From: Desulfomicrobium sp. ZS1
GTDB lineage: Bacteria; Desulfobacterota; Desulfovibrionia; Desulfovibrionales; Desulfomicrobiaceae
DNA length: 64,000 nucleotides
Direction: 5' to 3'
Assembly: GCF_024204645.1 (NCBI RefSeq)
Contig: NZ_CP100351.1
Span: forward strand, 992,001 to 1,056,000
In this document: positions 43,980-60,789 of the stretch, piece after piece
Position numbering within the stretch: position 1 is the stretch's first letter
Layout: every line of letters starts with the position of its first letter
Program-made: the position numbers and the translations under genes
The notes under the pieces: model-generated
Seen by the model: only the letters and a program-made list of their open reading frames with translations
Told to the model about the DNA's origin: nothing
Databases searched by the model: none

Positions 43980-45506
43980 TCATTTGGTGTCATCAAAAAT
44001 AGTATGAATGAGCTTATTGGCTAACAGTTCGGGGCGCAAATCAAGGTGATTTTTTGATTTTATAGAACTTCTTGATGACCAGAAAAAATAGTCCGTGGCT
44101 TTGGATGCAGATGAATTGTCGAGCACTGCGTCAAGGCTTGGAACATGGTCACCGTATAGTGCAAGCACCATCTCACGCTCAAGTTGCTTGCTTTGCCGCA
44201 TCATTTCTCCGACTCCCTCGTCTAGACTTGCAAGATGGCGAAGGTAATGTCCAAGCGAGGTGCCCGTTTTTTGTCCTTCTTTTGAAAATCTGTCTGGGAG
44301 CCAAGGACCGTGGGCTTCCATGGTGATTACAAATACAAAAAGGGGTTCTGTGGAGTTCTTCATCAAGTTTAAGGCCACATCCAAAACTTTTCTGTCACTG
44401 ACATAGGGGCCGTTTCTATCCGAGACTGAAAAGTGTTCCATACCCATGAATTGATCGAATCCTAAATTATTCATAACCATGTCGCGTCGGAAAAACTTGG
44501 GGTCATAAGGATGCAGGCAGATCGAGTGGTATCCGAGTTTTCGTAGACGGTGTGCCATGGACGTGATCGGTCTTTGCGCCGCAAGAAGATAGGGATCGAA
44601 GCTAAAAGTCTCCATCCGGCGGAGGTCAAGCCCCGTGAGTACGGAGAATTCCGTTCGCATAGTGTAGGCTCCACTCCATTCGAGCAGGAGATTTCCATAT
44701 GTCCCTTGTGACATCGCCAACCGGATGTTGGGCATGATTTCAGAACTCACTGAAGGGATAAAGCGACGGATGTCACAAAAGGATTCTGCCTGCACAATGA
44801 GCACGTGAGGCTTGATATCTGATTCTAGTTTTACATTTTGAATGTCTTTTGTTGTATATTGTACTGTGCGGAGAAGATCATCTACTCCATTTTTAAGTCT
44901 TTTGTTGTGATGTACAGCATGAAGTAGTGATGCGCCAATAGGTGTGAATCGTGCAGCATCTATGCTTGGATTAAAGCTCAAATTATTTTTTTCAAGCATT
45001 TTTTTAAGTGGGTGTCGAATCAGTCCGATCAGCATGGCTCCAAAGACGGACCATGGTATAATCGCGCAAATTCCCAGAATCATCCGCGTGTAGTTGTTCA
45101 GAGCTGTATTTTTAGCTTCCAGGAAAAGAATTCCCAAAAAAATTGTGACCCACAGACCTGCAATAATGCGCGGTGGAGTTGTGGCGTGCGCTATGTAAAG
45201 GTGGGGATGTCCAATCACCTGTCCAGCCAGAAATATATCCGAGAAGACAAGAGGTTCATGTAGAACATCCATTTTGAGCCGGTTTGTCGCCCACAAAAGC
45301 CCACTTACTCCTGTAGTTAGCCAAAGAGCGAGGAATGGGCGAGCGCTTATTGCAGCAAAGCACGCGAAGAGGGAGGAAGCCAGAGCCAAGGCAACCAAAT
45401 GGCCTATTAACATTTGTCTCTGTGGAGATGGAAGCGCCATGGCGGCTTGGCGGTTGATGAGCACGGTGAAAATGGCAGCCAGTAGAAATGCGATCAGAAA
45501 AGTCAT
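43980..45506 (-). CDS. Membrane sulfatase-fold transferase (LTA synthase-like; RkpI-like)
   Basis: 508 residues. Five hydrophobic helices (1-165) precede a large extracytoplasmic domain of the alkaline phosphatase/sulfatase superfamily: HVLIVQAESFCDIRRF, SGAYTMRTEFSVLTGL (nucleophile Thr), and the metal-binding LALYGDHVPSLD. Such enzymes move phosphoglycerol or phosphoethanolamine-type groups to glycans or lipids outside the membrane. It begins two bases after the SDR stop and ends the capsule operon. Rhizobial rkpI also encodes a membrane protein in this position, so an RkpI-like role in capsule lipid assembly is inferred. Confidence 0.82.
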   Translation of the reverse strand: MTFLIAFLLAAIFTVLINRQAAMALPSPQRQMLIGHLVALALASSLFACFAAISARPFLALWLTTGVSGLLWATNRLKMDVLHEPLVFSDIFLAGQVIGHPHLYIAHATTPPRIIAGLWVTIFLGILFLEAKNTALNNYTRMILGICAIIPWSVFGAMLIGLIRHPLKKMLEKNNLSFNPSIDAARFTPIGASLLHAVHHNKRLKNGVDDLLRTVQYTTKDIQNVKLESDIKPHVLIVQAESFCDIRRFIPSVSSEIMPNIRLAMSQGTYGNLLLEWSGAYTMRTEFSVLTGLDLRRMETFSFDPYLLAAQRPITSMAHRLRKLGYHSICLHPYDPKFFRRDMVMNNLGFDQFMGMEHFSVSDRNGPYVSDRKVLDVALNLMKNSTEPLFVFVITMEAHGPWLPDRFSKEGQKTGTSLGHYLRHLASLDEGVGEMMRQSKQLEREMVLALYGDHVPSLDAVLDNSSASKATDYFFWSSRSSIKSKNHLDLRPELLANKLIHTIFDDTK

Positions 45507-45508
45507 GC

Positions 45509-46333
45509 TTAAGAATCCTTGGAGGCAAGCGGTGATTCTTGATCAGGTTCCACATCAAATGCAAAGCCAGCGAGAAAAAAATGTGCAAGTCTATCCGGGA
45601 GGAAATGCAGGGCCTTGAGGCCAATGACTAGGGGCCATGGAAATGCGTATTCCGGGGTGTCCTTTTCCAGTGCGCGCACAATACGACGTGCAGCATGAAA
45701 CGCTGTCCAGCGCAGGGGCTGTGCTCCCTTGAGGCGTTGACTCATGGGCGTGTCAACATATCCAGGACATATCACGTTGACGCGAATTCCTTGAGGGCGG
45801 AGCAGGTGTCTTAAGGATTGACCGTAAATGCGAATAGCGGCCTTTGATGCACAATAGGCAGGGGAGCTTGGTAGACCGTAGTAGGATGCAATGGAACTGA
45901 TCAACACGATTTGGCCCTGTTTGTGCGGAAGCATCGCGTCGGCGGCAAGGGCTGCGAGGTGCATCGTGGCCACGGCGTTTGTCTCCATGACGCGCAATGT
46001 GTCAGCCAGCGTTTCATGAATTTTTTTTCCGTTTTTGCTGCGTGATGACGCGGAGACTCCCGCACAAGCGATGACCAAATCCAGAGGAGCCGTAGATGCG
46101 CACGAGTTAAGCCAGTCTGTGACGAATTCCTGGTTGCGCATATCCACCAGTGTTGAACTGACTTTAGCTCCCCTGTTCTCACATTCGCGCACGGTTTCAT
46201 TCAGGCGTCCAGACGAGCGTGCCGCAAGAAAAAGGTGACGATTCGGACCTGCATATTCCAGCGCCAAGGCTCTGCCGATTCCACTGCTGGCTCCAGTTAT
46301 CACGATATGGCGTGAGAGAGAAGATGTACTCAT
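45509..46333 (-). CDS. Short-chain dehydrogenase/reductase (RkpH-like)
   Basis: 274 residues from the ATG at 46333, which overlaps the previous stop as ATGA; an ATG nine bases earlier is also in frame. Classical SDR: cofactor motif TGASSGIGRAL, ISSIASYYG and the catalytic YCASK, with NVICPGYVDTPM. It should reduce a keto group with NAD(P)H in the cytoplasm. Sitting in the operon with the polyketide synthase and the alpha-oxoamine synthase, it is placed to reduce the 3-keto product, as in sphingoid-base pathways; rkpH in rhizobia is the nearest parallel. Reaction inferred. Confidence 0.88.
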   Translation of the reverse strand: MSTSSLSRHIVITGASSGIGRALALEYAGPNRHLFLAARSSGRLNETVRECENRGAKVSSTLVDMRNQEFVTDWLNSCASTAPLDLVIACAGVSASSRSKNGKKIHETLADTLRVMETNAVATMHLAALAADAMLPHKQGQIVLISSIASYYGLPSSPAYCASKAAIRIYGQSLRHLLRPQGIRVNVICPGYVDTPMSQRLKGAQPLRWTAFHAARRIVRALEKDTPEYAFPWPLVIGLKALHFLPDRLAHFFLAGFAFDVEPDQESPLASKDS

Positions 46334-46932
46334 GACAGCCATGTCTTGGCCATAATAATGCTCCCTAACGGATGCCTTTGAGTCAGCGTTTCACAAGCGG
46401 CTATGGTCTGATGTTGTGAAAATCCATGACGCTTATAGAAAGCGAGGGCGCGGGCGTTATCTGCCCAAGTATGCAAGGATATGCCGGTGAGACACATATC
46501 GCGAGCGCACATTTCGCTATAATCCATAAGAACGTCGGCTAGGCCGCCTCCCCGCCAAGATGGATGTACCCAGATGGTATTCACATAAAAGGTAGCGGGA
46601 ATACTTGTGGTGAGAATGCCTCGCACTGCCTCGACGCGGGCAGGAGAAAGAAACTTTTCCATGATGGGAGGGATAGTGTGCTGGGATGCGGGATAAGCGA
46701 AAATGAGCCCCGCAAGCTGTTCTTGGTGTCTAATGAGTGTGATATTGTTTATCTGAAAGTATGTGTTGCCTTCGCGTAGGATCATAGCCAGAAGTTGCTC
46801 GGTGGCAATGTCAGGGAAAAGTCCTGCAAAAAGGTGATCCACAATTCCTTCGGATGTTTTGCGAATGCATTCAGCGGCGATTTCGGCATCGTCCAGCGTG
46901 GCGCGGTGGAATTCCAAGTCCAGAGCTTTCAT
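46330..46932 (-). CDS. GNAT-family acyltransferase in capsule operon
   Basis: 200 residues. The acetyl-CoA-binding core is IWVHPSWRGGGLADVLM followed by NARALAFYKRHGF, typical for GNAT enzymes. GAGG precedes the start. It lies between KpsS and the SDR with a 4-base overlap into the latter. In sphingolipid-producing bacteria the N-acylation step is done by a GNAT-like enzyme, so an N-acyl or N-acetyl transfer to the amino lipid is possible; transfer to a capsule amino sugar is the alternative. Confidence 0.8.
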   Translation of the reverse strand: MKALDLEFHRATLDDAEIAAECIRKTSEGIVDHLFAGLFPDIATEQLLAMILREGNTYFQINNITLIRHQEQLAGLIFAYPASQHTIPPIMEKFLSPARVEAVRGILTTSIPATFYVNTIWVHPSWRGGGLADVLMDYSEMCARDMCLTGISLHTWADNARALAFYKRHGFSQHQTIAACETLTQRHPLGSIIMAKTWLS

Positions 46933-46946
46933 GTATGCACCCTCGT

Positions 46947-48254
46947 TTATGGTGTTGTCCAGATTGGTTTGGGTTCTGCATTGAAGCTGGACGGAATTTC
47001 ATCGGGGCAGGTTAACTGCATGCAAGTCGGTTGCACCATGCCTAATCGAACCATGCAATGTGCGATGGCGGTTCTGATGCCTAAAGAAGTATAAAAGTTG
47101 CCGTTGACCAATGTGCGAACCTTGAGAACCTTGAGGAAAGCGTCGAGTACGATTTTGTTCGGCTCGATAGGTAATGTCCAAAAACTGTTTAAAGGCTGAT
47201 CTATATTGCTCAAAGCAAGTCCTTGCATGGCATAAATAGACTTTCCTATGCAGTAAACTGGTCTTCCAAGTTCTAGTGCAGAGAGTCCTATGGTGCTGTT
47301 TAGAAGGACAACTCCGCTTGAGTGCTTAATCATTCGTGTTGTATTTCCATGATCAACAAAATGAACACGCTCCGAAACACCGCAAGCACGGGTAAAATCT
47401 TCAATGAATCCGGCGTAGTCGATAAGGCCGTTGTCCAAGGGATGATTTTTGATTAAAAGATGAGTGTTCTGTTCAGCATATGCTGCGAAGGAAGCAATCA
47501 CATGTCCGATCCCCTCGCGCATTCCACTAAACGGGGAATATCGTCGTACTTGCGCATCAGCATCAAGTTGAAGAGGAAAGAGAAAATACGGGTGCTTATG
47601 GTGAAAAAAATTTCTTAAAATGACCTGAGATTTTTTTTCACGTTTTTTCCGACCAAGATATCTAGGAATCCAGCCGCAGAGCTCTCTGGCGATGTTGTGT
47701 GGACGATGCGTCCTGTAACGAAAGAAGGCGGGTAACATGATTCCGTTGCAGACGTGATGAATAATTGCGTCGTACACGCGTTGTCGTATGGGATTGGGAA
47801 CCGATGTCGGAGGAAGGGGCTCGGGAAAAAGTCCAGCCGCTTCGAGCACCGCTTGAGAGTTGGTTGGCATGGTGGAATTGCCGTTTACCCCGCCTTCTTC
47901 CATGGTGATGTAGTCGGGGCGTAGGTAGCCTTCCTCAAAAACAAAGACCCGAATTCTAAAATGGCGGGCCAAAAGGACTGCTTCCCAGTGCAAAGGGCGC
48001 CAATCGCCAAAAAGAAGCAAATCAGTGACCTTTTCTTCTTGCATGATACGCGAAATCCAACTCGACCATTCCCGATTTCCGCCAAGGTAAAGTCTGGATT
48101 CTTGTCCTGGCCAATGGGCGATGTCACCACCGCAAAAATTGATTTTAATGACTGATGCGCCATAACGGCGTAAGGTGCGCCCAAGTCTGCGAAAAAAAGC
48201 GCTTTGGGGTCCCTGCAGAAACAGAAATGTGCGTTTTGTGGATGCAAGTGTCAT
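46947..48254 (-). CDS. kpsS: Capsule polysaccharide protein KpsS/RkpJ-like (beta-Kdo transferase)
   Basis: 435 residues from ATG 48254, seven bases after the alpha-oxoamine synthase stop; an in-frame ATG much further up lies inside that gene. Family features: TFLFLQGPQSAFFRRLGRTL at the start, then DLLLFGDWRPLHWEA, FVFEEGYLRPDYITMEEGGV, LLIKNHPLDNG, FVDHGNTTRMIKHSSGVVLL and NSTIGLSALELGRPVYCIG. KpsS adds the first Kdo of the poly-Kdo linker to the lipid anchor of group 2-type capsules, at the cytoplasmic face of the membrane. Its place inside the PKS operon argues that the lipid it acts on is made by this cluster. rkpJ is the rhizobial counterpart. Confidence 0.9.
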   Translation of the reverse strand: MTLASTKRTFLFLQGPQSAFFRRLGRTLRRYGASVIKINFCGGDIAHWPGQESRLYLGGNREWSSWISRIMQEEKVTDLLLFGDWRPLHWEAVLLARHFRIRVFVFEEGYLRPDYITMEEGGVNGNSTMPTNSQAVLEAAGLFPEPLPPTSVPNPIRQRVYDAIIHHVCNGIMLPAFFRYRTHRPHNIARELCGWIPRYLGRKKREKKSQVILRNFFHHKHPYFLFPLQLDADAQVRRYSPFSGMREGIGHVIASFAAYAEQNTHLLIKNHPLDNGLIDYAGFIEDFTRACGVSERVHFVDHGNTTRMIKHSSGVVLLNSTIGLSALELGRPVYCIGKSIYAMQGLALSNIDQPLNSFWTLPIEPNKIVLDAFLKVLKVRTLVNGNFYTSLGIRTAIAHCMVRLGMVQPTCMQLTCPDEIPSSFNAEPKPIWTTP

Positions 48255-48261
48255 GATATGT

Positions 48262-49620
48262 TTACCGAACAATGGCTTCCGCCCGGTCGAGGGCTTTGGG
48301 AAGTTCTTCCGCAACGGCATCAAGAGCTTGACGTACACACTCTTCCCCGTGAGCGGCCGAAAGAAAGAAGCGCAGGCGGGCGGAGCCTTCCTCAACGACG
48401 GGATAGATGATGGGCAGTACGTTCACCTTTAATTCAAACAGAGCTGTGGCTAGAAGTCCGGCAACCAGAGAACTGCCGAGTTTGATGGGCACAATCGCGT
48501 AACCATCGGCATCTCCGGTATTAAGTTGTTTATCTTTGGCGTAAGATAGAAAAAAACGGCTGATGGACTGCAATTTTTCAACCCGCCAAGGTTCTCGTAG
48601 CATTATTTCAAGGGCGGTCTTCGAGGCAGCCGCCAGTGGCGGGGACATTCCTACGCTGTATACAAAGCCGGATGCCGTGAATTTTAGCAATTCAATAAGC
48701 GATTTGCTTCCGGCTATGAATCCTCCACAACCGCATAGGGTTTTACTCAGCGTCCCCATCCAAATGTCCACATTTTGGGGATTGATGCCGAAATGCTCGG
48801 CAACTCCGCAGCCTGTTTTGCCCAGTACGCCAAAGCCATGTGCATCATCGACCATCAAAAAGCATTTATGGCGTTTTTTGAGTGCGATCAGTCCGGGTAA
48901 ATCCGCGATATGCCCGTCCATGCTAAAAAGTCCTTCCGTGACAATGAGTGCCCTCTGATATTGACCGCGATGTTCGTGCAGAAGACGTTCAAGGGCATCT
49001 AGATCATTATGAGGGAAACATATCCGATAGGCTCCGGAAGCAGTTGCGCCTTGTACAATAGAATTATGTGCAAGCGAATCTTGAAAGATGATGTCCTTGC
49101 GTCCAAATAGCTGTGAGATGGTGGAGACATTCGTTGCATGTCCGCTGACAAATGTCAGGCAGGCATCTACGTTGTATAGTTGTGCCAAAGCTTTTTCGAG
49201 TGCTCGGTGTGGTGGACGCTCCCCAGATACAAGTCTGCTGGCCGACGCCGAAGTCCCGTACCTTCGCATGGCCTCCCCGGCGGCAGCGATTATTTCCGGA
49301 TGTCCGTTCAAGTCCAAATAGTCATAGGTCGAAAAATTTAGATATGATACGCCATCAATGCTCGTGACATCTTTGGCAATGCCATCGTGGCAGGCAAAAA
49401 ATGGATTTAAGATGCCAGTCTGATTCGCCACTGCGTGCTGGATACGCAATTGTTTGTATCCGGGAAGCTCTTCAAATTGCAAATATTTATCAGGTACGTT
49501 CACGGAATCGACCCGTTCGCGCGCTTGGAAGCCGTTTTGCCCCTGCTTCATCTTGGCCAACAGATTTCGTTTGGCATCTTCCGAGAGTCCAAACAGATTA
49601 TCATGCTTGGCATCAGTCAT
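48262..49620 (-). CDS. PLP-dependent alpha-oxoamine synthase (RkpG-like)
   Basis: 452 residues from ATG 49620 with AAGGAG upstream, overlapping the PKS stop by eight bases. Fold-type I PLP enzyme: VSGHATNVSTISQLFG, DDAHGFGVLGKTGCG, and the lysine for PLP in GTLSKTLCGCGG. The N-terminal 80 residues (ELPGYKQLRIQHAV, GILNPFFACHDG, NFSTYDYLDLNGHPE) are longer than in BioF and resemble serine palmitoyltransferase and PKS-associated members. The family condenses an amino acid with an acyl thioester, releasing CO2. Coupled translation with a thioesterase-free PKS suggests it takes the chain directly from the PKS carrier domain, giving an amino ketone. The amino acid cannot be told. Confidence 0.9.
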   Translation of the reverse strand: MTDAKHDNLFGLSEDAKRNLLAKMKQGQNGFQARERVDSVNVPDKYLQFEELPGYKQLRIQHAVANQTGILNPFFACHDGIAKDVTSIDGVSYLNFSTYDYLDLNGHPEIIAAAGEAMRRYGTSASASRLVSGERPPHRALEKALAQLYNVDACLTFVSGHATNVSTISQLFGRKDIIFQDSLAHNSIVQGATASGAYRICFPHNDLDALERLLHEHRGQYQRALIVTEGLFSMDGHIADLPGLIALKKRHKCFLMVDDAHGFGVLGKTGCGVAEHFGINPQNVDIWMGTLSKTLCGCGGFIAGSKSLIELLKFTASGFVYSVGMSPPLAAASKTALEIMLREPWRVEKLQSISRFFLSYAKDKQLNTGDADGYAIVPIKLGSSLVAGLLATALFELKVNVLPIIYPVVEEGSARLRFFLSAAHGEECVRQALDAVAEELPKALDRAEAIVR

Positions 49621-52600
49621 GGCTGGTCTCCTTGGCTCTGCTTTCATCCTTCAGACTGCTTGTCACGTTCTGAGGTATGATTGTCCCATGTTGTACTTGC
49701 ATGGTTTGTAAAATATGTGCTTCGTCATCAAGATGTTGAGTGCCGTCCAGCGTCTCGTAAAAGCGTTCGGCAATGGTTGTGATGCTGGCTCCTCCGGAGA
49801 GGGAGATCGTAGGAGTTTCAAGCCCAAATCGTTCTTCCAATGCAATTCCAAGCTCCACAGCCATGAGGGAATCCATCCCGAAATCTGCCACGGGTGTGGT
49901 GAGCGCCAGTCGGCCAGAGGGAATGCGTAGGATACTTGCGACCTCTTCGGCTATGCATTCGGAGAGGAATTGGACAGCCTCTTTGCGGTTTTTGCCTTTG
50001 ATTTGTTCCAAAAGTGAATCGCTGGTTCGCTCATCTTCATGCCCGCTTCCCGGACGCATGTTCTCAAAACGGTTTGAAGCGGCATTGGGCAGACGCTTAG
50101 CTTTGTTCCAGTCAATTTTGAATATGGCGGGAATGGTCACGCCCCGCCAATGCAAACGTTCAAGAAGATCTAATGCATCCGTTGCCTTGATGGCCGTTAC
50201 GCCAAGAATGGTTCGTAAGGATTCCAGGGCATTGGGGTCGCGCACAAGCATTCCAGCATCGGCGATAGGCCCCCAAGCAATCGCCACAGCAGGTAGACCA
50301 CGGGAACGTCGGTACCCTGCCAAGGTTTCCAGTGCACAGTTGGCAGCGACATAATTTGCCTGGCCAGGGTTACCCATCAGAGTTGTTGCCGAAGAGTAGA
50401 GAATAAAGAACTCAAGGTCGTAGGTCAGGGAATAGGTGTGGAGGTTCCAGGCACCTACGGCTTTTGCCTTGAGTACCTGCTTAAATCGCTCTGGATTTTG
50501 GTTCATGATGATCGCATCGTCCAGGACCGCTGCCGCATGAATGATACCTTTGAGGGGCTTGGTATTACGAAGTGCCTCGTCCAGCGCGGAACGCATGGCG
50601 AGTTCGTCCGATACATCCGCTTTGATGATGCTTACAGTAGCACCTTTTTTACGCAGGGACGCTAGTACCGTGTCCGCTTCAGGTGCACCCTTTCCGCTAC
50701 GACCAAGGAGCAGAAGGTGCTTTGCCCCACGCTCCACAAGACGTTCGGCTGTCTTGAGTCCAAACCCTCCAAGTCCTCCACTGATCAGGTACGAACCCTT
50801 GGCAGTGATAGGTAATTCCGCTGAGATCTTGGGCGCTGGGCGGACTCCGCGAACATGCTCATCAAAAGTAACCACCAGTTTTCCGATATGTCGAGATTGT
50901 TGCATGGTGCGAAAGGCTTCGCTTGCGTTGGCACGGGAGAAAATTCGGTGAGGAAGCGGGCGCAGAATTTTTTTGGAGAAGAGGTCCATGAGGTCGGAAA
51001 AAAGCTGTCGTGCCATTCTTGGTCTTGCTGTGAGCAACTGGTCGACATCGATTCCGAAGTAGCTGATGTTGTTGCGAAACGGTCTTAAGAACATGGGGCT
51101 GTCCCCATAGAAGTCTCGTTTGCCCAATTCGAGAAAGCGTCCAAAGGGCCGCAACACCGAGAGGCCCTTGGCAATGGCTTCGCCGTGAAGGGAATTGAGG
51201 ACCATATCCACGCCATCGCCTTCCGTTTTCTCCATGATGTCATCAGCGAATCGATACGAGCGCGAGTCAAGGATATGCTTGACCCCCAAGAGTTTCAGAA
51301 AATCGCGTTTTTCATCGGACCCGGCCGTCGCAAACACTTCCAGGCCAAGGTGGTTTGCAATTTGAATGGCAGCCAGTCCGACACCACCTGCCGCGCCATG
51401 CACAAGCACACGTTCGCCGGGAAGCGCTCTCGCCAGATGTTTCAGCGCATAAAAGGCCGTGAAGAATGCAACGGGAATTGTTGCAGCCTCTTCATGCGAC
51501 AAACCATGGGGTTTCTGAACCACGGCCGCTTCACTGGTGGTAACAAAGGAACTAAAACAGGACGGGGCAAAGCAAACAACATCGTCGCCGACCTGGAAAT
51601 CTATCACGCCTTCGCCAACGGCGGAGACGACACCGCTACATTCCAAACCCATTGTTGGGCCGGAAAAACCGTTTTCCAGGGCTTCATCCGGTAGCATTCC
51701 CATTGCCCACATGACATCGCGGAAGTTAAGTCCCGTGGCCATTGTCTGGATTTGAATCTGGCCGGGGCCAGGCAAACAGCGAGAAATCTGACGCCAGTAA
51801 AGGCGGTCAAACTTGCCCGGCACGTCAAACATCAACCGAATAGCATCAGCAACATCGGGTGTGTTGGGACGAGCAGGCGTGGAATCAAAGGATTCAATTT
51901 TGGCGCGATAGCGGCGATCATCGATGAGGACGAGCTCTTGATCCGGTCCCGGCGATAACAGTTCCTGTGCAAGCCCGTCGAGCTGGGCTTTGCTCGGAAT
52001 TCCTCCCGCCAAATCGATAAGTCGAGTGTCCAAGCCGGGCATCTCGTTTTGCAATACTCTGCCAAATCCCCACAGAGGAGCTTGCGACATGACTGGTCTA
52101 ATCTGCTCCCCCGCAACTTCCTGGCATCCCCCGTTGATGAACCAGAACCGGCAGGAGGGATGGTCAGCCATATTCCAGCCCTGAGCCATAGCTGTCGCCA
52201 CGCATGTTCTGCGCATGGCGACATCAAGAAGATGTTGCGCAGAACATTCTGGCTGAAATTCGAGCCCCAGCAGGTGGACGCATTCGACACGCTCCCGATC
52301 CCGCAAAGAAGCCCAAACATTGCGCCAGTCATCGGCATTTTCAGGATCAAAATTTACCCGTCCATTTTTTACGGGAAATTGCTCCCCAGTGCTCGCCAAA
52401 ATTATATCGGCTCCTGCCTTGTCCAAAGATTTGGCGAGGGTATCACGGACCAAAAATTCGTCAGGATTGGAATCATCGGCAAGCAAGAGCCATGTTGTCC
52501 GCGCATCTGGGGGCGTATTGCGTGGCTGATAATCGACTTCGGCAGGTCGCTGTCCCAGGAGAATAAAACTGTCCGGAGCATACCCGTTGCAGGGTTCGTG

Positions 52601-55600
52601 CAGGACACAAGCATCCGCATAACCGGCTAGTTGCAAAGCTCGCACCCAGCTTGAACAGGAGAGGAGGCGGGAAGACGGTTCTTCAGGCGAAGAAGAGCGT
52701 GTCCACCAGTGCGGATCAGTTCCTTGAATCATGTTTTCGAGGCTTGAAGGACTTCGTTCGATACATACCAAAACGCCTCCAGGTGCCAATAAGGAAAGAC
52801 AGCCTTGGAGTGCCTCTTCTATTCGGTCCACTGCATGCAGTGCCTGACCCGACAGGATCACATCATACTTCTCGAATTCCGATGCGTCGGGATGTTCAAC
52901 GTCGAGGACAGAAAAAGAGATACCATGCTGGTTTTCCCAAGTTGCTTTAAGCAATTCCAATGCGCTTGGTTCTTTCTCTGAGACCACGTAGTCGCAAACT
53001 CCGGCATCAAGAACAGGAATGATTGTGCTTAAGAGTCCACCTGGCGCAGCACCGACTTCCAAAATGCGCAGACGTCTGCCGGGAGGGCAGCGTACCACGC
53101 ATTCGCGCACCAATGTAGCCACTACTTCGTTGACCAAGCGAATCGAGGGCGCGTTGGCATATAAGTGTTCGATGGTTGCCCCTTGCTCTTGGCCGAGTAT
53201 GGCTTGCGGGAGCATTGCCCCGCTGAGCAATTGGCGCAGGTGCAATCCGACCCTTCCAATAAGAACCGCTTCAGGGAGATGGGCGGGATAGTCGGCGATT
53301 ATTGTCCTCCACAAGGTCACGGAAGGGGGGAGGCCGCTCTCGTGTTCGACGATCCAGGAACCTTGCGCATGTCGGGCAAGATCATGGCTTGCCAGCAGTT
53401 CGAGAATGAAAACAAGGTAGGGGATGTTTTCCTGTGTGACGAGGCCCATGGTGACACCGTCGGACACTTTGAATGAGCCGATTTTAGCCAGTGGTTTGAT
53501 CGCTTCATGAGCCAGAGCAATGGTCGCCGCTTGGCAGAGTGCAAGAACTGTATCAAAATAAGCTTTCCGATCAAGTAATTGCGCCTTGTCTTCCACAACC
53601 GGGGTGAGGATTTTCTTGAGGTCCAGGGGAGAAGGCACTGCCGCAATTTTGCGTGCCATTGGATGCGGCTGGGCTATAAAAACAGTTCTGTAGGCATCCA
53701 ACTCCCGCTCAGACGCGGCTCGCAAGTCCACACGTCGAAATCTGCAATCATCAAGGGTCGCCAAAACAAGTCCTTGAGCATCATACAGTATGAAGGAAGC
53801 CACAATGGAACGAGTCGAGATTCGGAGTAGACTTGCTCTGGCATAGCGAACATTCCCTGGGGCAAAAAAGATCGAGCGTCCAAACCAGGACGGTAGGAAA
53901 GCGGAACGGTTATTTTTAGGGAGTCGCTCTGCCAGAAGTATAAAAAGAGCCTGAAACGCGCCATCGACCAACGGGGGAGCCAGATGCAAATTCTGGCCTG
54001 CCAAGGGATCAGACAGCTTCATTTCGACAATGACGCTTTCTCCATCGCGCCATGCCCCATGAATCGGGGTGAAAGGTGGAGCATAGTGCAGCCCCATTGT
54101 TCGTGCAGTATTGTACAAAGAGGCAACAGGAAGCGCTTCCGCATCACGGCAACGCAATTCGATATTTTCCGGGGCGGGGCGTTGAGCGTCGCAAGCACAG
54201 ACACGGCCGTTGCCATGAACAATCCAGTCTTCGGTGGTCAGAACGGTTTTGCTCGCAATGCGCAGTAGTCCATCTTTCTCAAGAGAGGTGCGGACTTTTT
54301 TGGGTGAAGTACTGCTCAGCACAAAGGGGCGACGAATGTCGAGATTGACGATTTCGATGACGTCTGAATCCGGAGCATGCAACCGTCCTGCTGCATGGCA
54401 AAGTTCGAGAAAACCGGCAGCAGGGAAAAGAATCGTTTCTCCGATAATATGCCCCGCAAGCCAAGGATAAAGTTGTGTATCAAGAGTGTTTTCGTACGTT
54501 TCCAGTTCATTTCCCAATACTCTGCCCAGTAGGGGATGCACGGGCCTGCCTGACAGGAGTCCCGCGCTCTCGGCTGTTGATGACAGCCAAAGCCGCTCTC
54601 GATCCCAAGGATAAGTCGGTAAGGAAATTCGTTTGGGTTGGCGAGGGAAGATGTGTTGAACGTCCATGGGCCAACCTGAAGTGTAGGCTCTGCGCCATGC
54701 CGCTTCGAACATGACCGCGTCATCTGCATTCCGCTTGAGGGTCGGTACGACACAGGCGCGTATGCCGGAGGTACGGATGGCGTCTTTGACGTAGTATTGC
54801 AGTACTCCGTGTGCACCGATTTCAAGAAAAATTCTGGCTCCGTTGTTCAGCAGCGTCTGTGTTGCAGTCAAAAATTGTACCGGCTGGCGGATATTTTGCC
54901 ACCAGTAAGCCGCCCCCAAGTCTGTCCCTTCGGTATCCTCCCCCGTTACTGTTGAAACAAAACGAGTATGTCCAGGACGAGGGGTTATGTCCGCAAGCGC
55001 ATTCTGTAACGGCAGTTTGAGGCCGTCCATGTATCGACTGTGAAAGGGATAGGCCAAAGGCAGGACCTTACAGAAGCCCTTTTCGGCGGCAATCTCTTCC
55101 TCAATGGCCCTCAGCGCCTTGAGGTCACCGGCCAAGGTCACCGAACCGGCTGAATTGATAGCTGCAATTTCGATTTTTCCGTTTGCGGCTTTGGCTAGGG
55201 TCATGGCCCTTTGCATGTCGATGTTGACCGCAGCCATGCCTCCGCTACCATGAGTGAGGCCTTGAAGGGCGCTGCGGTGGTAAATGACGGTACAGGCGTC
55301 TTTCAAGTCAAGAGCCCCGCTTGCGTAGGCTGCGGCAACCTCGCCCACGCTGTGTCCGTAGACAGCGCGGGGGATGATGCCCTTGGCTTTGAGGGCGGCC
55401 ACAAGTCCAATCTGTACGGCAAAGAGCAGCGGTTGGGCCACTTCGGTACGGTCCAGCTCCCAGGTTTGTGTCGACATGCGTATGCGTTCGGCCACGGACC
55501 AACCTTGGAGCGGAGCCAGATAGTCATCGACTTCTCCCAACGCATCGCTGAAAGCGGTGTTCGTTTTCAACAGGGCCGCACCCATTCCTGGCCATTGGCA

Positions 55601-57247
55601 ACCATTGCCCGAAAACACGAATACGGAATCTCCCTTTGCGCAGGCAACATCACCCTGCTCGATCTGGTATGAAGCTGTGTATTTTTCGATCGGCTGTTCC
55701 TGCTCAAACGTTGTCAGCGCGGTGATCATGCTTGAGCGATCGGCAGCCGTGACGATCATCCGATTTTCGAGATGATCGCGCCGCATGGCTGTGGCAGCTG
55801 CCAGATCATAGACAGACGTGCTTTCGTCTTCTGCCAATCTCCGAGCATAGATACCAGCCAGATGAGCCAAGCTCGGGTGGCTACGGGCGCTGAGCAGGAG
55901 AGTGGGCCACGAAGGAACCGGATGCTCAGTATTCTGCTCGGTCTGACAAGAATTGATACCTTCGAGCACTACATGTGCATTGGTTCCTCCGAATCCAAAG
56001 GAATTAACGCCAATGAGCGGTGGTTCATCTCCGGTGGGCAGGAGCACTGGAGCGGTAGGGACACAGAGATTTTGTCCCATGAAATCAATGGAGGGATTGG
56101 GTGTCTCTAAATGCAAATTGGCCGGGATTGTGCCATTTTTGAGAATGGTGAGGGCTTTCAAAAGTCCGGCCATGCCTGACCCTGTTTCCAGATGTCCAAG
56201 GTTTCCTTTGACCGAACCAACGTAGAGCGGACGGTCCTTGGGTCGGGACAAGCCAAGAACAGTCCCGATAGATGCGGCTTCGATCGGATCTCCAGCAGCG
56301 GTGCCAGTGCCATGCGCTTCCATGTAAGCCAGACGCGCGAGGTCAATTCCTTCGGTCGAGTAGATCTTGCGCAACAGATCTTCCTGGGCGGCCCCATTGG
56401 GCAGGGCGATGCCGGTGGTACGGCCATCTGAATTGACAGCGGTGGCACGGATGACGGCATGGATTTGATCACCGTCGGTCAAGGCTTGCTCCAAACGCTT
56501 GATGAGAACAACTCCTCCTCCCTCGGCACGGACATACCCATTGCCCGATGAATCAAAAACTTTACACCGTCCGTCCTTGGACAGCATGTGCGCCTTGGAA
56601 AAACCGATAAAGGGGAAGGGCGTCAGCAAGATGTTCACGCCTCCGGCAACGGCCAGTGGCAAATCGTCATCAAGAACCGCTCGACAGGCCTGATGCAATG
56701 CGACCAAAGCTGAAGAACAAGCGGTATCGATTGTCATGCTCGGGCCGTGCAGATCAAAAAAATAGGAAACCCGGTTGGAGATGATGCCAAGGGATGTGCC
56801 TGTCATGGAATATGGTCCCATGATGCAGGGGTCTTCGGCCCGACACATGCCCATGTCGGTTGAGGCTGCACCGATAAACACGGCAGTACGTGACCCGGCC
56901 ATTGAAGATGGCGGAATTCCCGCGTCTTCAAAAGCCTCCCATGTCATTTCCAGAACCAAGCGTTGCTGCGGATCGAGGTTTTCAGCTTCCTTGCGGGAAA
57001 TTCCGAAAAAACCAGCATCAAAGCCTGTGATGTCCTCCAGTACGCCGGCAGCGAAAGTGCAGGAGCGCCCAGGGGCTTTACGGTCCGGATGGATAAATCT
57101 CTCCAAGTCGAATCTGTCGGGAGGGATGCTGGTTACGGCGTCGCGGCCGTCAATGAGAAGTTGCCACAGGTCATCCAGAGAGTTGACCTTTCCGGGGAGA
57201 CGGCATCCGACACCGATGATGGCGAGAGAATTTTGGTTTGAGTTCAT
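49613..57247 (-). CDS. Highly reducing type I polyketide synthase (RkpA-like)
   Basis: 2544 residues. Domains: KS 6-430 (Cys177 in DTACSSA, His312, His352), AT about 545-860 (Ser633 in GHSVGE; YPFH at 733-736), DH about 903-1175 (His933, Asp1095), C-methyltransferase-like 1230-1560 (EVGAAPGG), ER about 1808-2127 (VHGAAGGVGLAA), KR about 2150-2350 (GGLGGFG, Tyr2299) and ACP with Ser2460 (GMDSLMAV). No thioesterase follows. This set is that of an iterative, fully reducing, fungal-like synthase, so it should make a saturated, perhaps methyl-branched chain. RkpA of rhizobia is of comparable size and placing. No ribosome site is evident before the ATG; the upstream 230 bases are AT-rich and probably hold the promoter. 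Confidence 0.95.
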   Translation of the reverse strand: MNSNQNSLAIIGVGCRLPGKVNSLDDLWQLLIDGRDAVTSIPPDRFDLERFIHPDRKAPGRSCTFAAGVLEDITGFDAGFFGISRKEAENLDPQQRLVLEMTWEAFEDAGIPPSSMAGSRTAVFIGAASTDMGMCRAEDPCIMGPYSMTGTSLGIISNRVSYFFDLHGPSMTIDTACSSALVALHQACRAVLDDDLPLAVAGGVNILLTPFPFIGFSKAHMLSKDGRCKVFDSSGNGYVRAEGGGVVLIKRLEQALTDGDQIHAVIRATAVNSDGRTTGIALPNGAAQEDLLRKIYSTEGIDLARLAYMEAHGTGTAAGDPIEAASIGTVLGLSRPKDRPLYVGSVKGNLGHLETGSGMAGLLKALTILKNGTIPANLHLETPNPSIDFMGQNLCVPTAPVLLPTGDEPPLIGVNSFGFGGTNAHVVLEGINSCQTEQNTEHPVPSWPTLLLSARSHPSLAHLAGIYARRLAEDESTSVYDLAAATAMRRDHLENRMIVTAADRSSMITALTTFEQEQPIEKYTASYQIEQGDVACAKGDSVFVFSGNGCQWPGMGAALLKTNTAFSDALGEVDDYLAPLQGWSVAERIRMSTQTWELDRTEVAQPLLFAVQIGLVAALKAKGIIPRAVYGHSVGEVAAAYASGALDLKDACTVIYHRSALQGLTHGSGGMAAVNIDMQRAMTLAKAANGKIEIAAINSAGSVTLAGDLKALRAIEEEIAAEKGFCKVLPLAYPFHSRYMDGLKLPLQNALADITPRPGHTRFVSTVTGEDTEGTDLGAAYWWQNIRQPVQFLTATQTLLNNGARIFLEIGAHGVLQYYVKDAIRTSGIRACVVPTLKRNADDAVMFEAAWRRAYTSGWPMDVQHIFPRQPKRISLPTYPWDRERLWLSSTAESAGLLSGRPVHPLLGRVLGNELETYENTLDTQLYPWLAGHIIGETILFPAAGFLELCHAAGRLHAPDSDVIEIVNLDIRRPFVLSSTSPKKVRTSLEKDGLLRIASKTVLTTEDWIVHGNGRVCACDAQRPAPENIELRCRDAEALPVASLYNTARTMGLHYAPPFTPIHGAWRDGESVIVEMKLSDPLAGQNLHLAPPLVDGAFQALFILLAERLPKNNRSAFLPSWFGRSIFFAPGNVRYARASLLRISTRSIVASFILYDAQGLVLATLDDCRFRRVDLRAASERELDAYRTVFIAQPHPMARKIAAVPSPLDLKKILTPVVEDKAQLLDRKAYFDTVLALCQAATIALAHEAIKPLAKIGSFKVSDGVTMGLVTQENIPYLVFILELLASHDLARHAQGSWIVEHESGLPPSVTLWRTIIADYPAHLPEAVLIGRVGLHLRQLLSGAMLPQAILGQEQGATIEHLYANAPSIRLVNEVVATLVRECVVRCPPGRRLRILEVGAAPGGLLSTIIPVLDAGVCDYVVSEKEPSALELLKATWENQHGISFSVLDVEHPDASEFEKYDVILSGQALHAVDRIEEALQGCLSLLAPGGVLVCIERSPSSLENMIQGTDPHWWTRSSSPEEPSSRLLSCSSWVRALQLAGYADACVLHEPCNGYAPDSFILLGQRPAEVDYQPRNTPPDARTTWLLLADDSNPDEFLVRDTLAKSLDKAGADIILASTGEQFPVKNGRVNFDPENADDWRNVWASLRDRERVECVHLLGLEFQPECSAQHLLDVAMRRTCVATAMAQGWNMADHPSCRFWFINGGCQEVAGEQIRPVMSQAPLWGFGRVLQNEMPGLDTRLIDLAGGIPSKAQLDGLAQELLSPGPDQELVLIDDRRYRAKIESFDSTPARPNTPDVADAIRLMFDVPGKFDRLYWRQISRCLPGPGQIQIQTMATGLNFRDVMWAMGMLPDEALENGFSGPTMGLECSGVVSAVGEGVIDFQVGDDVVCFAPSCFSSFVTTSEAAVVQKPHGLSHEEAATIPVAFFTAFYALKHLARALPGERVLVHGAAGGVGLAAIQIANHLGLEVFATAGSDEKRDFLKLLGVKHILDSRSYRFADDIMEKTEGDGVDMVLNSLHGEAIAKGLSVLRPFGRFLELGKRDFYGDSPMFLRPFRNNISYFGIDVDQLLTARPRMARQLFSDLMDLFSKKILRPLPHRIFSRANASEAFRTMQQSRHIGKLVVTFDEHVRGVRPAPKISAELPITAKGSYLISGGLGGFGLKTAERLVERGAKHLLLLGRSGKGAPEADTVLASLRKKGATVSIIKADVSDELAMRSALDEALRNTKPLKGIIHAAAVLDDAIIMNQNPERFKQVLKAKAVGAWNLHTYSLTYDLEFFILYSSATTLMGNPGQANYVAANCALETLAGYRRSRGLPAVAIAWGPIADAGMLVRDPNALESLRTILGVTAIKATDALDLLERLHWRGVTIPAIFKIDWNKAKRLPNAASNRFENMRPGSGHEDERTSDSLLEQIKGKNRKEAVQFLSECIAEEVASILRIPSGRLALTTPVADFGMDSLMAVELGIALEERFGLETPTISLSGGASITTIAERFYETLDGTQHLDDEAHILQTMQVQHGTIIPQNVTSSLKDESRAKETSHD

Positions 57248-57483: not shown

Positions 57484-59508
57484 TTACTTATTTTCGCATT
57501 GCTTCCATATTTCGCGTAGGTTCCAGAGCAGGCGAACCCAAAATTTTCCTTGCATTTTGGATGAAGGGTCCCTCAAGCGAGAGCATACTTCCTCGGGACC
57601 GCAGAACATCCCCGTCCGCCAATCGAAATAAGTTGGGTAGAGGATGAGGGTGCCCGCGACCAATTCATCTATGGCGAGTCTTCGCTCGCGACGTGGAAAA
57701 TCTAACCGGTCCCGTGTCATGCCCCATCCGGCATAGAACGGTCCTCCATAGGTGTGGACCGGCACATCGCGCAGCAGGGCCTCGAACCCTGTCAGCGAAG
57801 TTAAGGTATGAACCTCGTCCACGGTGTTCAAAAGATGGTGCATGTTGGCATCTCGCAGCACCTGATCTGCATGGCGCAGTGCCTGCACGTCGAGAATTTT
57901 ACCTTGGCGGTTACTGCGCTCCACATCAGGATGAGGCTTGTACAGGATGAACGCATCTGGACATGTCCGCCTGACCTCTGCCAAAAGCTCAAGGTTGGAG
58001 GTGATGTCCCCGCCGCCGAGGCGTACGGAAGCATCGTCTTCGACTTGACCAGGCACCAGGACGATCCTGCGATTCTTGGGAAATGAAGCGGTAATTAGGG
58101 AATTAGCCGAAACATTGTATTTGGTAATGCCCTGAGCCAAGATGTGGAGACGAAGCGCCTTGGCCCGATCCTGTAGTTCTGGCGAAAATTCATTGAATTG
58201 CAAAATGGTTTCAAGTCTGCTTGGTCGTGAGGGATCATAATAGATGCCTTGTTCATCAAGAACCAGCGAATAGGGCCAGTGAAAATCCGACCCGAGACCT
58301 GCTGAACGGATGAATCCGTCTTCCATGCGTACAAGCCTAATTCCAGCCGTTTTACACTCCTGTTCAAGATCTTCGCTGGCCCGTGAGGACCAGACCACAA
58401 TCCGACCGCTGTTTTTTGCGGCATGAGTGATAGCTTTGTGCTGGGAAGAAAAAAAACGGGTTGCTCCGTTAGTTGATGAAAGAAATGCCTGTGCATGGGG
58501 GTGCTTCCAGCGGGAGAAATTGAGGCAAGCCGTGTACCCGGCGTTGCGTTCGTTTATTTCTCGCTGCCGGGCGAGAATGCGGATGATTTCATGGATGTCG
58601 CAGCGTTGTCCGGTAAACGGATTCACATAGCGAGCATAAATGATGTATGCGGCGGCGAAGATTTCGAGCGTCGACCGTTTTCGAGTGCGGCGTTGGCAGG
58701 ACAGTTCGTCCCTAGTTACGCCCCAACCCGCATAAAAAGGCAGTCCGAAGCAATGAACGTCCTTGCCTAAGAGCAAAGCTTCAAAACCCATCTGCGAGGT
58801 GACGGTGAATACGGCGTCTGCCTGGGCCAAGAGGGATAACGGCGCGAAGTCCTCGGCGATGACGGTTATTCCGTCCAAAGCAGCAGAAGTTGTAAGATAT
58901 CCTTTTTTCTTTCCGGCAATGACATCCGGATGGGTTTTCACGAAAAAGCGTCCCTTGGGAAATCGTGACTTTGCTGCTTTCACCATGCTTTGGAATGATG
59001 ATGCGTCAGCCGCACCCAAGCCTACGCTCATGTCACCGACGGTCTGGTCAATGAGTAAAATGCGCGGACGAGATGAATCGCCTAAAAGCTCATTTGGTGC
59101 CGTTGGGGCATGATTGTATTTACTCAGGCAAAATCTCAAGATGGACGCGAGGGCTTTTTCACTCTCTTGGAGAAATTCGGCATTCAGTTCTCCTTGCTCC
59201 AGTAATTGTTCTAAATCTGAGGGTTGACGTGCATCGTAGTAGATGCCCTGTCCGTCAACCACTAGGGAGAGAGGAGGCGCACCGTTGCAGCCAAGATCCA
59301 AGGAACGTAAAAAACCATCTTCGAGGCGCAGGATCGGCAATCCGTGCCTGCGAGCAAAATCTTCGCCTTTTTGGGATGTGGGGCGTCGTCCCCAAACCGC
59401 GATGGAGGATAACGCTATCGTCGTTTTATCAGGATTTATCACCGAATCGCCTAAAAAGACTGAAAGCAAAGAAATGGACCTTATGCCAGGGGAACAGACT
59501 CCGATCAT
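57484..59508 (-). CDS. kpsC: Capsule polysaccharide beta-Kdo transferase KpsC
   Basis: 674 residues made of two homologous halves: the first half carries LRLEDGFLRSLDLG, PPLSLVVDGQGIYYDARQPS, FFVKTHPDV and SQMGFEALLLGKDVHCFGLPFYAGWG; the second repeats these as VRMEDGFIRSAGLG, YSLVLDEQGIYYDPSRPS, LYKPHPDV and TGFEALLRDVPVHTYGGPFYAGWG. This is the double Kdo-transferase design of KpsC, which extends the poly-Kdo linker on the lipid anchor. It starts six bases after the KdsB-KdsC stop, so all Kdo genes are in one unit. Confidence 0.95.
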   Translation of the reverse strand: MIGVCSPGIRSISLLSVFLGDSVINPDKTTIALSSIAVWGRRPTSQKGEDFARRHGLPILRLEDGFLRSLDLGCNGAPPLSLVVDGQGIYYDARQPSDLEQLLEQGELNAEFLQESEKALASILRFCLSKYNHAPTAPNELLGDSSRPRILLIDQTVGDMSVGLGAADASSFQSMVKAAKSRFPKGRFFVKTHPDVIAGKKKGYLTTSAALDGITVIAEDFAPLSLLAQADAVFTVTSQMGFEALLLGKDVHCFGLPFYAGWGVTRDELSCQRRTRKRSTLEIFAAAYIIYARYVNPFTGQRCDIHEIIRILARQREINERNAGYTACLNFSRWKHPHAQAFLSSTNGATRFFSSQHKAITHAAKNSGRIVVWSSRASEDLEQECKTAGIRLVRMEDGFIRSAGLGSDFHWPYSLVLDEQGIYYDPSRPSRLETILQFNEFSPELQDRAKALRLHILAQGITKYNVSANSLITASFPKNRRIVLVPGQVEDDASVRLGGGDITSNLELLAEVRRTCPDAFILYKPHPDVERSNRQGKILDVQALRHADQVLRDANMHHLLNTVDEVHTLTSLTGFEALLRDVPVHTYGGPFYAGWGMTRDRLDFPRRERRLAIDELVAGTLILYPTYFDWRTGMFCGPEEVCSRLRDPSSKMQGKFWVRLLWNLREIWKQCENK

Positions 59509-59514
59509 AATAAT

Positions 59515-60789
59515 CTATTGCGTTGCAGAGGTGAGAATTTTTTCAATTCCCTGTGCTGTGTTCAGATTGTCGAGCAAGCCTTTGGCTGCAAGAATCAATT
59601 CGGCAGCTTCTCGAAAAGCCCCTCTCCCGCCATTAGTCGAAAGAACGCAAGTGGCATTCTGTTTGATTGAGTCTACAGCATCGCCTACGGCAAAAGAAAA
59701 GCCGCAGGATGCAAAGGCGGGCAAGTCGATGACGTCATCTCCAATAAAAGCGGTATCGGATAGAGACACTCCATGAGTGGCGGCGAGAATTTCACACCCT
59801 TCGCGTTTGCAAAGTGTTCCGAGAAGGTGCTTGTCAATTTTCAAGTCTTGGAGGCGTTTTCGAAGAGCAGGGCAGTCACGTCCCGACAGCACGCTAACTG
59901 GAATTCCAGCAGAATTGAGCATTTTCATGCCCAAACCATCACGAGCATTGAACGACTTTAGTTCTTCCCCATTTTCCCCATAGTGCAACAACCCGTCCGT
60001 GAACACGCCGTCAACATCGGTAATGACGAGTTTGATCTCAGCAAGTGAGCGAGGCAAATCGCGGGATGTACCTGAGATGATAGCTCGGACCTGTTTCAGA
60101 TCTTCAAGTGTATCGACTCCGGGAAATGCGCTTGATGTCTCCAGTACTTTAATGGAAATCCCGGCCTGAAGATAACGCAATTGCTCCAATTTTTCGCAAT
60201 CTTCCAGCGGTGATGATGGAAGATGTTGAAACTGAAGAAGTGCGTCTTTTCGGTACCCATACAGGCCAATATGTTTGAATTTTGGAGGATTTTCAGATTT
60301 GTCACGATTGCAAGGAATCGCGCAGCGGCTGAAATAGAGTGCATCGCGGTTGTGTCTGAGCACAACCTTGACGACATTCGTATCCCTCGCAGTCAGGTCG
60401 TCAATAGGGGCGCAGAGGGTCGCGACCTGCACAGAGTCATCAGTCAGGAAGGCATTAATAACAAGATCAATGTCTTGAGGGCGGATCAAGGGTTCGTCGC
60501 CTTGTACATTGATGAACACGTCGGCGGAAGATTTTTTGGCCACTTCGATCAGGCGATCCGTGCCAGAAGCGCAATTCAGTGGTGTCATTACGGCTTTGCC
60601 GCCAAAGTTTGCCACTGTGTCAAAAATCCGCGCATCATCTGTCGCAACAACGACGTCGTGCGCAAGTGCGGAAAGGGAAGCTTTGCGGTAAACGTGTTCG
60701 ATCATGGGTTTGCCCAAGATGTCGAGCAATGGTTTTCCGGGAAGTCTGGATGATCCGTAACGAGCAGGGATGACAATGAGAACGCGCAT
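59515..60789 (-). CDS. kdsB-kdsC: Fused CMP-Kdo synthetase / Kdo-8-phosphate phosphatase
   Basis: 424 residues. Residues 1-240 are KdsB: IPARYGSSRLPGKPL, FINVQGDEPL, and KHIGLYGYRK; this makes CMP-Kdo from Kdo and CTP. Residues 250-424 are the HAD phosphatase KdsC: ITDVDGVFTDG (D258, D260), SGRDCPALRKR and FIGDDVIDLP; this removes phosphate from Kdo-8-phosphate. Usually these are separate genes. The fusion joins the last two steps of Kdo activation. AAGGCGG precedes the start; kdsA lies three bases upstream. As an alternative the phosphatase half could act on a different keto acid, but the neighbours favour Kdo. Confidence 0.93.
   Translation of the reverse strand: MRVLIVIPARYGSSRLPGKPLLDILGKPMIEHVYRKASLSALAHDVVVATDDARIFDTVANFGGKAVMTPLNCASGTDRLIEVAKKSSADVFINVQGDEPLIRPQDIDLVINAFLTDDSVQVATLCAPIDDLTARDTNVVKVVLRHNRDALYFSRCAIPCNRDKSENPPKFKHIGLYGYRKDALLQFQHLPSSPLEDCEKLEQLRYLQAGISIKVLETSSAFPGVDTLEDLKQVRAIISGTSRDLPRSLAEIKLVITDVDGVFTDGLLHYGENGEELKSFNARDGLGMKMLNSAGIPVSVLSGRDCPALRKRLQDLKIDKHLLGTLCKREGCEILAATHGVSLSDTAFIGDDVIDLPAFASCGFSFAVGDAVDSIKQNATCVLSTNGGRGAFREAAELILAAKGLLDNLNTAQGIEKILTSATQ

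Follow-up and report, generated by a model that had tools for sequence, protein, structure and literature searches.

The rkp-1 genes of Sinorhizobium are described, in the sections of two papers that cite the original work, as making and modifying a lipophilic molecule or a specific lipid carrier for the K polysaccharide (PMC3557214, PMC4881576). For group 2 capsules, part of another report has KpsS adding the first 3-deoxy-D-manno-octulosonic acid (Kdo) to (lyso-)phosphatidylglycerol (PG) and KpsC extending it (PMC7694667). A third line of work comes from Pseudomonas: according to the main text of PMC12134224, SgaB forms 3-ketosphinganines from L-serine and acyl-CoAs, with an all but exclusive preference for L-serine over Ala and Gly, C24-28 sphinganines require SgaAB, and the strain also contains lipids heavier by 154 Da, which were interpreted as phosphoglycerol-sphingolipids; 6,101 clusters homologous to SgaAB were found, mainly in Burkholderia. 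The strings "capsul" and "kps" are absent from that main text, "sphingo" and "polyketide" are absent from the text of a 2025 review on capsule attachment (PMC12220298), and in the open-licence PMC literature we found no paper linking a sphingolipid made by a polyketide synthase (PKS) to capsule anchoring. Here, we describe a gene cluster of Desulfomicrobium sp. ZS1, located in a 64,000-nucleotide stretch of contig NZ_CP100351.1 (positions 992,001 to 1,056,000; the window), in which a PKS and an alpha-oxoamine synthase (AOS) lie among capsule genes, and which probably makes an unusual sphingolipid-like lipid that holds the sugar capsule in the membrane.

We propose, with a probability of roughly 0.62, that this block of genes supplies the lipid anchor for a capsule of the Kdo type that is exported by an ABC transporter: a sphinganine made by PKS, AOS, and a short-chain dehydrogenase/reductase (SDR) would be given a phosphoglycerol head and primed by KpsS and KpsC. 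In this scheme, the iterative PKS would build a long, mostly reduced acyl chain, which would stay on its acyl carrier protein (ACP), since the enzyme has no thioesterase. The AOS would join the acyl-ACP with an amino acid, most likely L-serine, to release 3-ketosphinganine and CO2, as its clade and the SgaB precedent suggest, and the SDR would reduce the ketone to sphinganine. An enzyme resembling LtaS and GacH may then move phosphoglycerol from PG onto the base, which is the most tentative part of the core scheme and would give sphinganine-phosphoglycerol, a mimic of lyso-PG. Because its glycerol-phosphate head is the same as that of lyso-PG, this product would suit KpsS, which, with roles assigned by homology, would add the first Kdo to the head, KpsC extending the linker and KpsMTED exporting the chain. 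In some lineages, a GNAT protein might modify the amine or another target. The first-pass annotation of this DNA had already envisaged a sphingoid-like amino-alcohol base that is released from the PKS by the AOS, reduced by the SDR, and used by KpsS; this idea is supported by our analysis and has a precedent in SgaAB and its use of L-serine, as reported in the main text of PMC12134224. Its scheme had left out the phosphoglycerol transferase, the next gene of the set (43980-45506).

All genes of the block lie on the minus strand, those of the first-pass annotation at the coordinates it gave, and are backed by Pfam and NCBIfam matches. They are transcribed in the order KdsA, KdsB-KdsC, KpsC, PKS, AOS, KpsS, GNAT, SDR, and LtaS-like. 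The start codon of the AOS gene (48262..49647; a further ATG is at 49620) falls within the 3' end of the PKS gene (49613..57247), which agrees with the coupling of the two that had been noted before. GNAT and SDR do follow the synthase, as had been stated, with the gene of a KpsS-like first beta-Kdo transferase (46947..48254) in between. The latter is matched by PF05159 (3.4e-72) and scores 238 bits with NF050054 (cut-off 600); its reading frame is open from 48395, and the likely start is the ATG at 48254, in agreement with homologues. GNAT (46330..46932) and SDR (45509..46342) overlap by 13 bp, and only 2 bp separate the SDR gene from the LtaS-like gene (43980..45506). Upstream are genes for a KpsC-like dual-module beta-Kdo transferase (57484..59508; PF05159 in two stretches, 7e-97), a KdsB-KdsC fusion for CMP-Kdo synthesis, identified by profile matches (59515..60789), and the Kdo-8-phosphate synthase KdsA (60793..61614; NF003543, 401 bits, over the cut-off). 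Past the end of the window, genes for an SLBB/Poly_export (KpsD-like) protein and for KpsE-, KpsT-, KpsM-, and KpsF-like proteins follow in the same orientation. With kpsS, kpsC, a Kdo supply, and kpsD/E/M/T/F all present, this is a complete Kdo-linked ABC-transporter (group 2) capsule locus with an inserted lipid-making module. Furthermore, it has a one-module PKS adjoining an RkpG-type AOS, together with SDR, sulfatase-fold membrane protein, and KpsS in one locus, and hence belongs to the rkp-1 (Sinorhizobium)/wcb (Burkholderia) kind.

The AOS, a pyridoxal phosphate (PLP)-dependent enzyme of the RkpG/WcbT type with K302 as PLP lysine, is matched by Aminotran_1_2 of Pfam (E = 2e-41) and by the AOS-family models of NCBIfam, the latter all with scores below the cut-off of the model. 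Kbl gave 288.7 bits (cut-off 460), and three serine palmitoyltransferase (SPT) models gave 278 (277.8), 235, and 170 bits (cut-offs 640, 500, and 670). Three genes of the genome belong to the AOS family: one is clearly a Kbl (672 bits, over the cut-off), one encodes a BioF-type protein, and the third is that of the window enzyme; a canonical Spt over the cut-off was not found in the genome by NCBIfam profile search. A careful tree was calculated from 47 of 92 rows, the long branches L003, L116, L117, L118, L126, and L177 being dropped from it and kept in a quick tree. It places the window AOS in a clade of 33 rows with a support of 100/100, apart from BioF, Kbl, and SPT and together with the enzymes of S. 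meliloti (49% identity over 399 aa), Shinella, Pseudomonas (51% for the AOS of plasmid locus L102), and Paraburkholderia. In the midpoint-rooted tree, a branch with 97/91 support sets this clade on the SPT side, and the approximately unbiased (AU) test allows a grouping with SPT alone (p 0.068). By its scores below the SPT cut-offs and its separate 100/100 clade beside SPT, the enzyme does not qualify as a canonical Spt. That it is a plain BioF or Kbl serving primary metabolism, to which it is related by a common fold and by family scores, is given almost no credence: Kbl and a BioF-type protein are encoded elsewhere in the genome, and the enzyme stays below every family cut-off in a fully supported clade of its own.

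Active-site residues and structure lean to SPT as well. Across 75 clade rows, the PLP lysine, H194, D267, H270, and R426 are invariant, and the residue preceding the lysine is Ser in 74 of them, as in 6/6 SPT sequences, versus Gly in 3/4 BioF and 2/2 Kbl. An AlphaFold2 model (pLDDT, the predicted local distance difference test score, 87.9) is closest to Sphingobacterium SPT with L-serine (3A2B; Z 52.2, root mean square deviation 1.8 over 392 residues), followed by 8guh (Z 51.6) and then Kbl (49.9). Since all folds compared are close, this is a lean towards SPT and not a proof. The claim that the N-terminal part resembles SPT was not upheld: the first 115 residues alone had no match among PDB chains at E ≤ 10. 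Small hints in its direction are the SPT profile NF047599, which aligns from residue 64, as compared to residues 92-93 for the BioF and Kbl profiles, and a TYDY motif.

The PKS (2,544 aa, one-module iterative type as in RkpA/WcbR/SgaA) has the Pfam domains KS-AT-DH-MT-ER-KR-ACP. The order is common to the homologues of S. meliloti, Pseudomonas, and Paraburkholderia, with the MT domain matched only in the window and Paraburkholderia proteins. The classical SDR (PF00106, adh_short, 2.8e-44), a proposed 3-ketosphinganine reductase of the RkpH/WcbP type, is 41-42% identical to the SDRs of the Pseudomonas and Paraburkholderia loci and 30% identical to that of S. meliloti; generic SDRs, and no ketosphinganine reductase, were among the PDB matches listed.

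The small GNAT, an accessory N-acyltransferase/acetyltransferase, is a member of its superfamily by both Pfam (Acetyltransf_1, 6.8e-11) and fold. The first-pass annotation had let it N-acylate the base to a ceramide, and a bCerS-like enzyme adding a long chain could explain why a window-type GNAT lies near the AOS in 14 of 23 named loci with PKS and in none of 57 others, a count made by BLAST, which is blind to the unrelated GNATs of the Pseudomonas and Paraburkholderia loci. We consider this improbable. The model (pLDDT 92) is a single small GNAT domain with acetyltransferases as nearest folds (top 1u6m), and the GNATs of the window, Pseudomonas, and Paraburkholderia loci align over short pieces only, with no further homology detectable. 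No GNAT is among the genes listed for the S. meliloti or Shinella loci. GNAT matches in 9 of 61 relatives (strong in 3) would suggest that the protein is rare, an impression corrected by the 14 of 23 named loci with PKS. The ceramide step is unsupported also because the published SgaAB products are free sphinganines and phosphoglycerol-sphinganines. We read the GNAT as a lineage-specific modifier.

The last gene encodes a membrane-anchored, sulfatase-fold protein of the RkpI/WcbQ type (PF00884, 6e-31) that resembles phosphoglycerol transferases. Seven distinct PDB sequences matched at E ≤ 0.001, all of them GacH/phosphoglycerol transferase, lipoteichoic acid (LTA) synthase, or LTA primase, with GacH as the best (3e-22). 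The putative catalytic residues E241, T282, H332, R341, H399, D453, and H454 align with GacH and are invariant in 12/12 aligned homologues from different loci; we take them to be a metal-binding Glu, the Thr nucleophile, an Asp-His pair, and substrate-binding Arg/His. A Kyte-Doolittle scan revealed four clear N-terminal hydrophobic segments (the family pattern is five membrane helices). Its distribution over genomes follows that of the AOS. Among 300 Burkholderiales, the gene was found in 10 of the 19 genomes with the AOS and in 1 of the 281 without it (p 7e-13); the corresponding counts are 8/13 and 4/356 among 369 Gammaproteobacteria (p 8e-11). In the window's own order, 8 of 9 genomes with a PKS-type AOS have the gene, as against none of the 52 others (p 3e-9). 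The p values ignore phylogeny and change little without the centre genomes (1e-11, 1.5e-9, and 2e-8). AOS and LtaS-like gene are on different contigs in G002, G005, G013, G014, G222, and G396; in G491, G536, and G636, the distance between them is about 24, 84, and 640 kb. Since the co-occurrence persists when the genes are unlinked, the enzyme appears to be tied to the lipid module. According to the main text of PMC12134224, over-expression of sgaAB in Pseudomonas fluorescens MYb115 raised the sphinganine and not the phosphoglycerol form, a result that would fit a separate enzyme for the phosphoglycerol form.

The same enzyme could instead decorate the capsule polymer or linker with phosphoglycerol in the periplasm, the lipid still being made by PKS, AOS, and SDR, and KpsS using bare sphinganine or ordinary lyso-PG. 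GacH, its closest solved relative, acts on a wall polysaccharide, and a periplasmic topology is usual in the LtaS family. We regard polymer decoration as unlikely, though it has to be taken seriously. The co-occurrence with the AOS by genome, also where the genes are unlinked, argues against it, and so does the capsular polysaccharide (CPS) I of Burkholderia, whose locus type has the LtaS-like gene and which is a deoxyheptose homopolymer not known to carry phosphoglycerol. In addition, the SgaAB strain contains phosphoglycerol-sphinganines.

The gene set recurs in other bacteria. Neighbourhoods were compared for the best 80 of 324 relatives from a scan of genome contigs, where many loci end at contig edges. 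A PKS lies near the AOS in 23 of the 80, accompanied by an SDR in 16, a GNAT in 14, a Kps gene in 13, and an LtaS/AP-type gene in 11. Among evenly drawn Gammaproteobacteria and Burkholderiales genomes (32 AOS matches, two centre genomes left out), a PKS is within 1.2 kb of the AOS in 26/32, a Kps gene is present in 18/32, and PKS plus Kps or LtaS in 22/32. Synteny with the window is seen in S. meliloti rkp-1 (L101), Pseudomonas (L102), Paraburkholderia (L103), Caballeronia (L106), and Shinella (L115). The Pseudomonas plasmid locus has PKS, AOS, PhyH, KpsC-like, GNAT, LtaS, SDR, and KpsS genes, and a capsule locus of Acidisoma (L116) has SDR, AOS, fatty acid hydroxylase, KpsS, KpsC, LtaS, and transport genes with no adjoining PKS. 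The product might nevertheless be a free sphingolipid or secondary metabolite and its place in a capsule locus incidental, given that what SgaAB makes was detected in the form of free lipids that act on the host (main text of PMC12134224) and that AOS of the clade also occur in noncapsule contexts, such as PKS fusions, an apparent AMP-ligase fusion, and the Desulfovibrio type described below. This is very doubtful, since the genes are interleaved with kpsS and kpsC in a single operon, kept across several phyla, and since the capsule requires rkp-1, as seen from mutant data given in citing papers (PMC3557214 and PMC4881576, in part). The spacing of the locus tags from AOS to SDR is 25 in MYb115 (RS19800 to RS19775), equal to that in L102 (RS26440 to RS26415), where PhyH, KpsC-like, GNAT, and LtaS genes lie in between; this suggests, short of proof, that the cluster of MYb115, too, is a locus of the capsule type.

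Several observations weigh against our proposal. BioF is the best NCBIfam model for the AOS (349.6 bits, cut-off 426.45), and the AU test allows a grouping of the clade with BioF (p 0.128) and rejects that with Kbl only marginally (p 0.048). The first-pass annotation had named a grouping with BioF or Kbl as speaking against its idea; as the AOS is in a clade of its own, that situation did not arise, with Kbl set apart and BioF still allowed. BioF uses alanine, and the active site of the clade bears a signature of its own (S133, E143, N195, and C307), so that glycine, alanine, or another amino acid might give an aminoketone or a 1-deoxysphingoid base. Such a product seems improbable in view of the Ser before the lysine, the SPT-like fold, and SgaB, a PKS-partnered AOS that is nearly exclusive for L-serine (main text of PMC12134224); from the clade and this precedent, L-serine is most likely the substrate. 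SgaB itself is placed in the clade by inference, from the 51% identity of the window AOS to that of L102 and the equal tag spacing. Furthermore, some AOS of the clade lie outside capsule loci: 57 of the 80 AOS loci, nearly all from Desulfovibrio, have no PKS; none of the 57 has an SDR, GNAT, or LtaS gene nearby, and a KpsT-like ABC match occurs in two. An LtaS-like match was absent from 9 of the 19 AOS-positive Burkholderiales, and a rhizobial-type sulfatase-fold query (from L115) found the same 11 Burkholderiales genomes, with no AOS-positive one gained. LtaS-type catalytic domains are normally periplasmic and KpsS is cytoplasmic, so the phosphoglycerol step would need a flip back or another order of events. 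Finally, what we say on the chemistry of AOS, SDR, and phosphoglycerol transfer, on the amino acid used, and on the side of the membrane at which phosphoglycerol is transferred is prediction.

A number of features around the locus and its relatives deserve mention. A serine resolvase (42898-43473) lies immediately downstream of the operon, the GC content of the window drops from about 0.58-0.60 at 1-12 kb to 0.39-0.54 beyond, and the closest AOS (76%) is from a Spartobacteria metagenome-assembled genome, same-genus relatives having 55-60%; for these reasons, the capsule locus looks horizontally acquired. In operon orientation, there is also a gene for a 716-aa protein (61632..63782) with a HAD-like N terminus and a remainder without Pfam family. 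A PhyH dioxygenase in Pseudomonas (L102:13441-14484) and a fatty acid hydroxylase in Acidisoma (L116:13280-13825) adjoin the AOS and could hydroxylate the long-chain base. A homologue of LpxC (UDP-acyl-GlcNAc deacetylase) lies between PKS and AOS in L103 (10887-11801; PF03331, 220 bits) and L106 (11042-11968). In Desulfovibrio, the clade is represented by a second type of AOS, which has no PKS or Kps genes nearby (L050:5921-12517 in Desulfovibrio piger and L079:5947-15578), adjoins a divergent acyltransferase-plus-weak-ACP protein, GT4 glycosyltransferases, and an asparagine-synthase-like protein, and may make another aminolipid. AOS of the clade are also found within longer genes in noncapsule settings, with a PKS in Planktothrix (L104:5602-13200) and in a 1,600-aa protein of Streptomyces (L105:8308-13131), and in G156 (L174) apparently behind an AMP-ligase-like N terminus. 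In S. meliloti Ak57, the sulfatase-fold gene at the rkpI position (L101, 14122-15797) is absent from the PLSDB table, and its matches are split between two reading frames that overlap. Although labelled pSymB, the record has 3.7 Mb and may be a mislabelled chromosome.

If the model is right, the locus stands for a capsule anchor of a new variety, a sphinganine-type lipid that is made with a PKS and headed by phosphoglycerol. The model would explain why capsule operons contain a PKS and an amino-acid-condensing enzyme. A lipid carrier has been claimed for rkp-1 since the 1990s without a chemical identity in the literature searched, and by joining the rkp-1 locus, the SgaAB sphingolipids of 2025, and the phosphoglycerol transferase, a concrete structure can now be proposed. 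We extend this tentatively, at somewhat less than even odds, to an entire class of capsules, the rhizobial and Burkholderia ones among them, which would be anchored on polyketide-made sphinganine-phosphoglycerol imitating lyso-PG instead of on PG; these bacteria would then be overlooked sphingolipid producers and the SgaAB lipids precursors of capsule anchors. This would answer a thirty-year-old question on the anchor of the related rhizobial and Burkholderia capsules and would give a physiological role to lipids so far seen as host-active secondary metabolites. By this model, sphingolipids should occur in Sutterella, Succinivibrionaceae, Desulfovibrio relatives, rhizobia, and Burkholderia.

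Compared to known systems, the window shares with S. meliloti rkp-1 (rkpA, G, H, I, and J; L101/L119, where we presume the gene names of L101 from synteny) the PKS, AOS, SDR, sulfatase-fold protein, and KpsS homologue. It differs in gene order; in S. meliloti, no GNAT is listed, the SDR is just 30% identical, no MT is matched in the PKS, and the sulfatase-fold protein is on a more distant branch. In relatives of Burkholderia, the loci of the wcb (CPS I) type (L103 and L106), for which we assume the gene-by-gene naming wcbO-T, have the same KpsS-SDR-LtaS-PKS-AOS set but carry the LpxC homologue, which the window lacks. SgaAB(C) of P. fluorescens MYb115 shares the one-module PKS, AOS, and SDR; it has proven SPT activity, sphinganines, and phosphoglycerol-sphinganines, and it was described as a secondary-metabolite cluster with no mention of a capsule in the main text (PMC12134224), whereas the window module is within a capsule locus. 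With the canonical Spt/bCerS/CerR pathway, the window has in common the predicted AOS chemistry and a nearby reductase and GNAT-type enzyme; unlike in that pathway, the AOS is of a separate clade, the PKS replaces stand-alone ACP/ACS, the SDR is classical, and no canonical SPT exceeds the cut-off in the genome. Finally, the window resembles the E. coli group 2 system, in which KpsS and KpsC act on lyso-PG, in its KpsS, KpsC, Kdo supply, and KpsMTED homologues, but in contrast to E. coli, it carries dedicated genes that are apparently able to make its own lipid acceptor.

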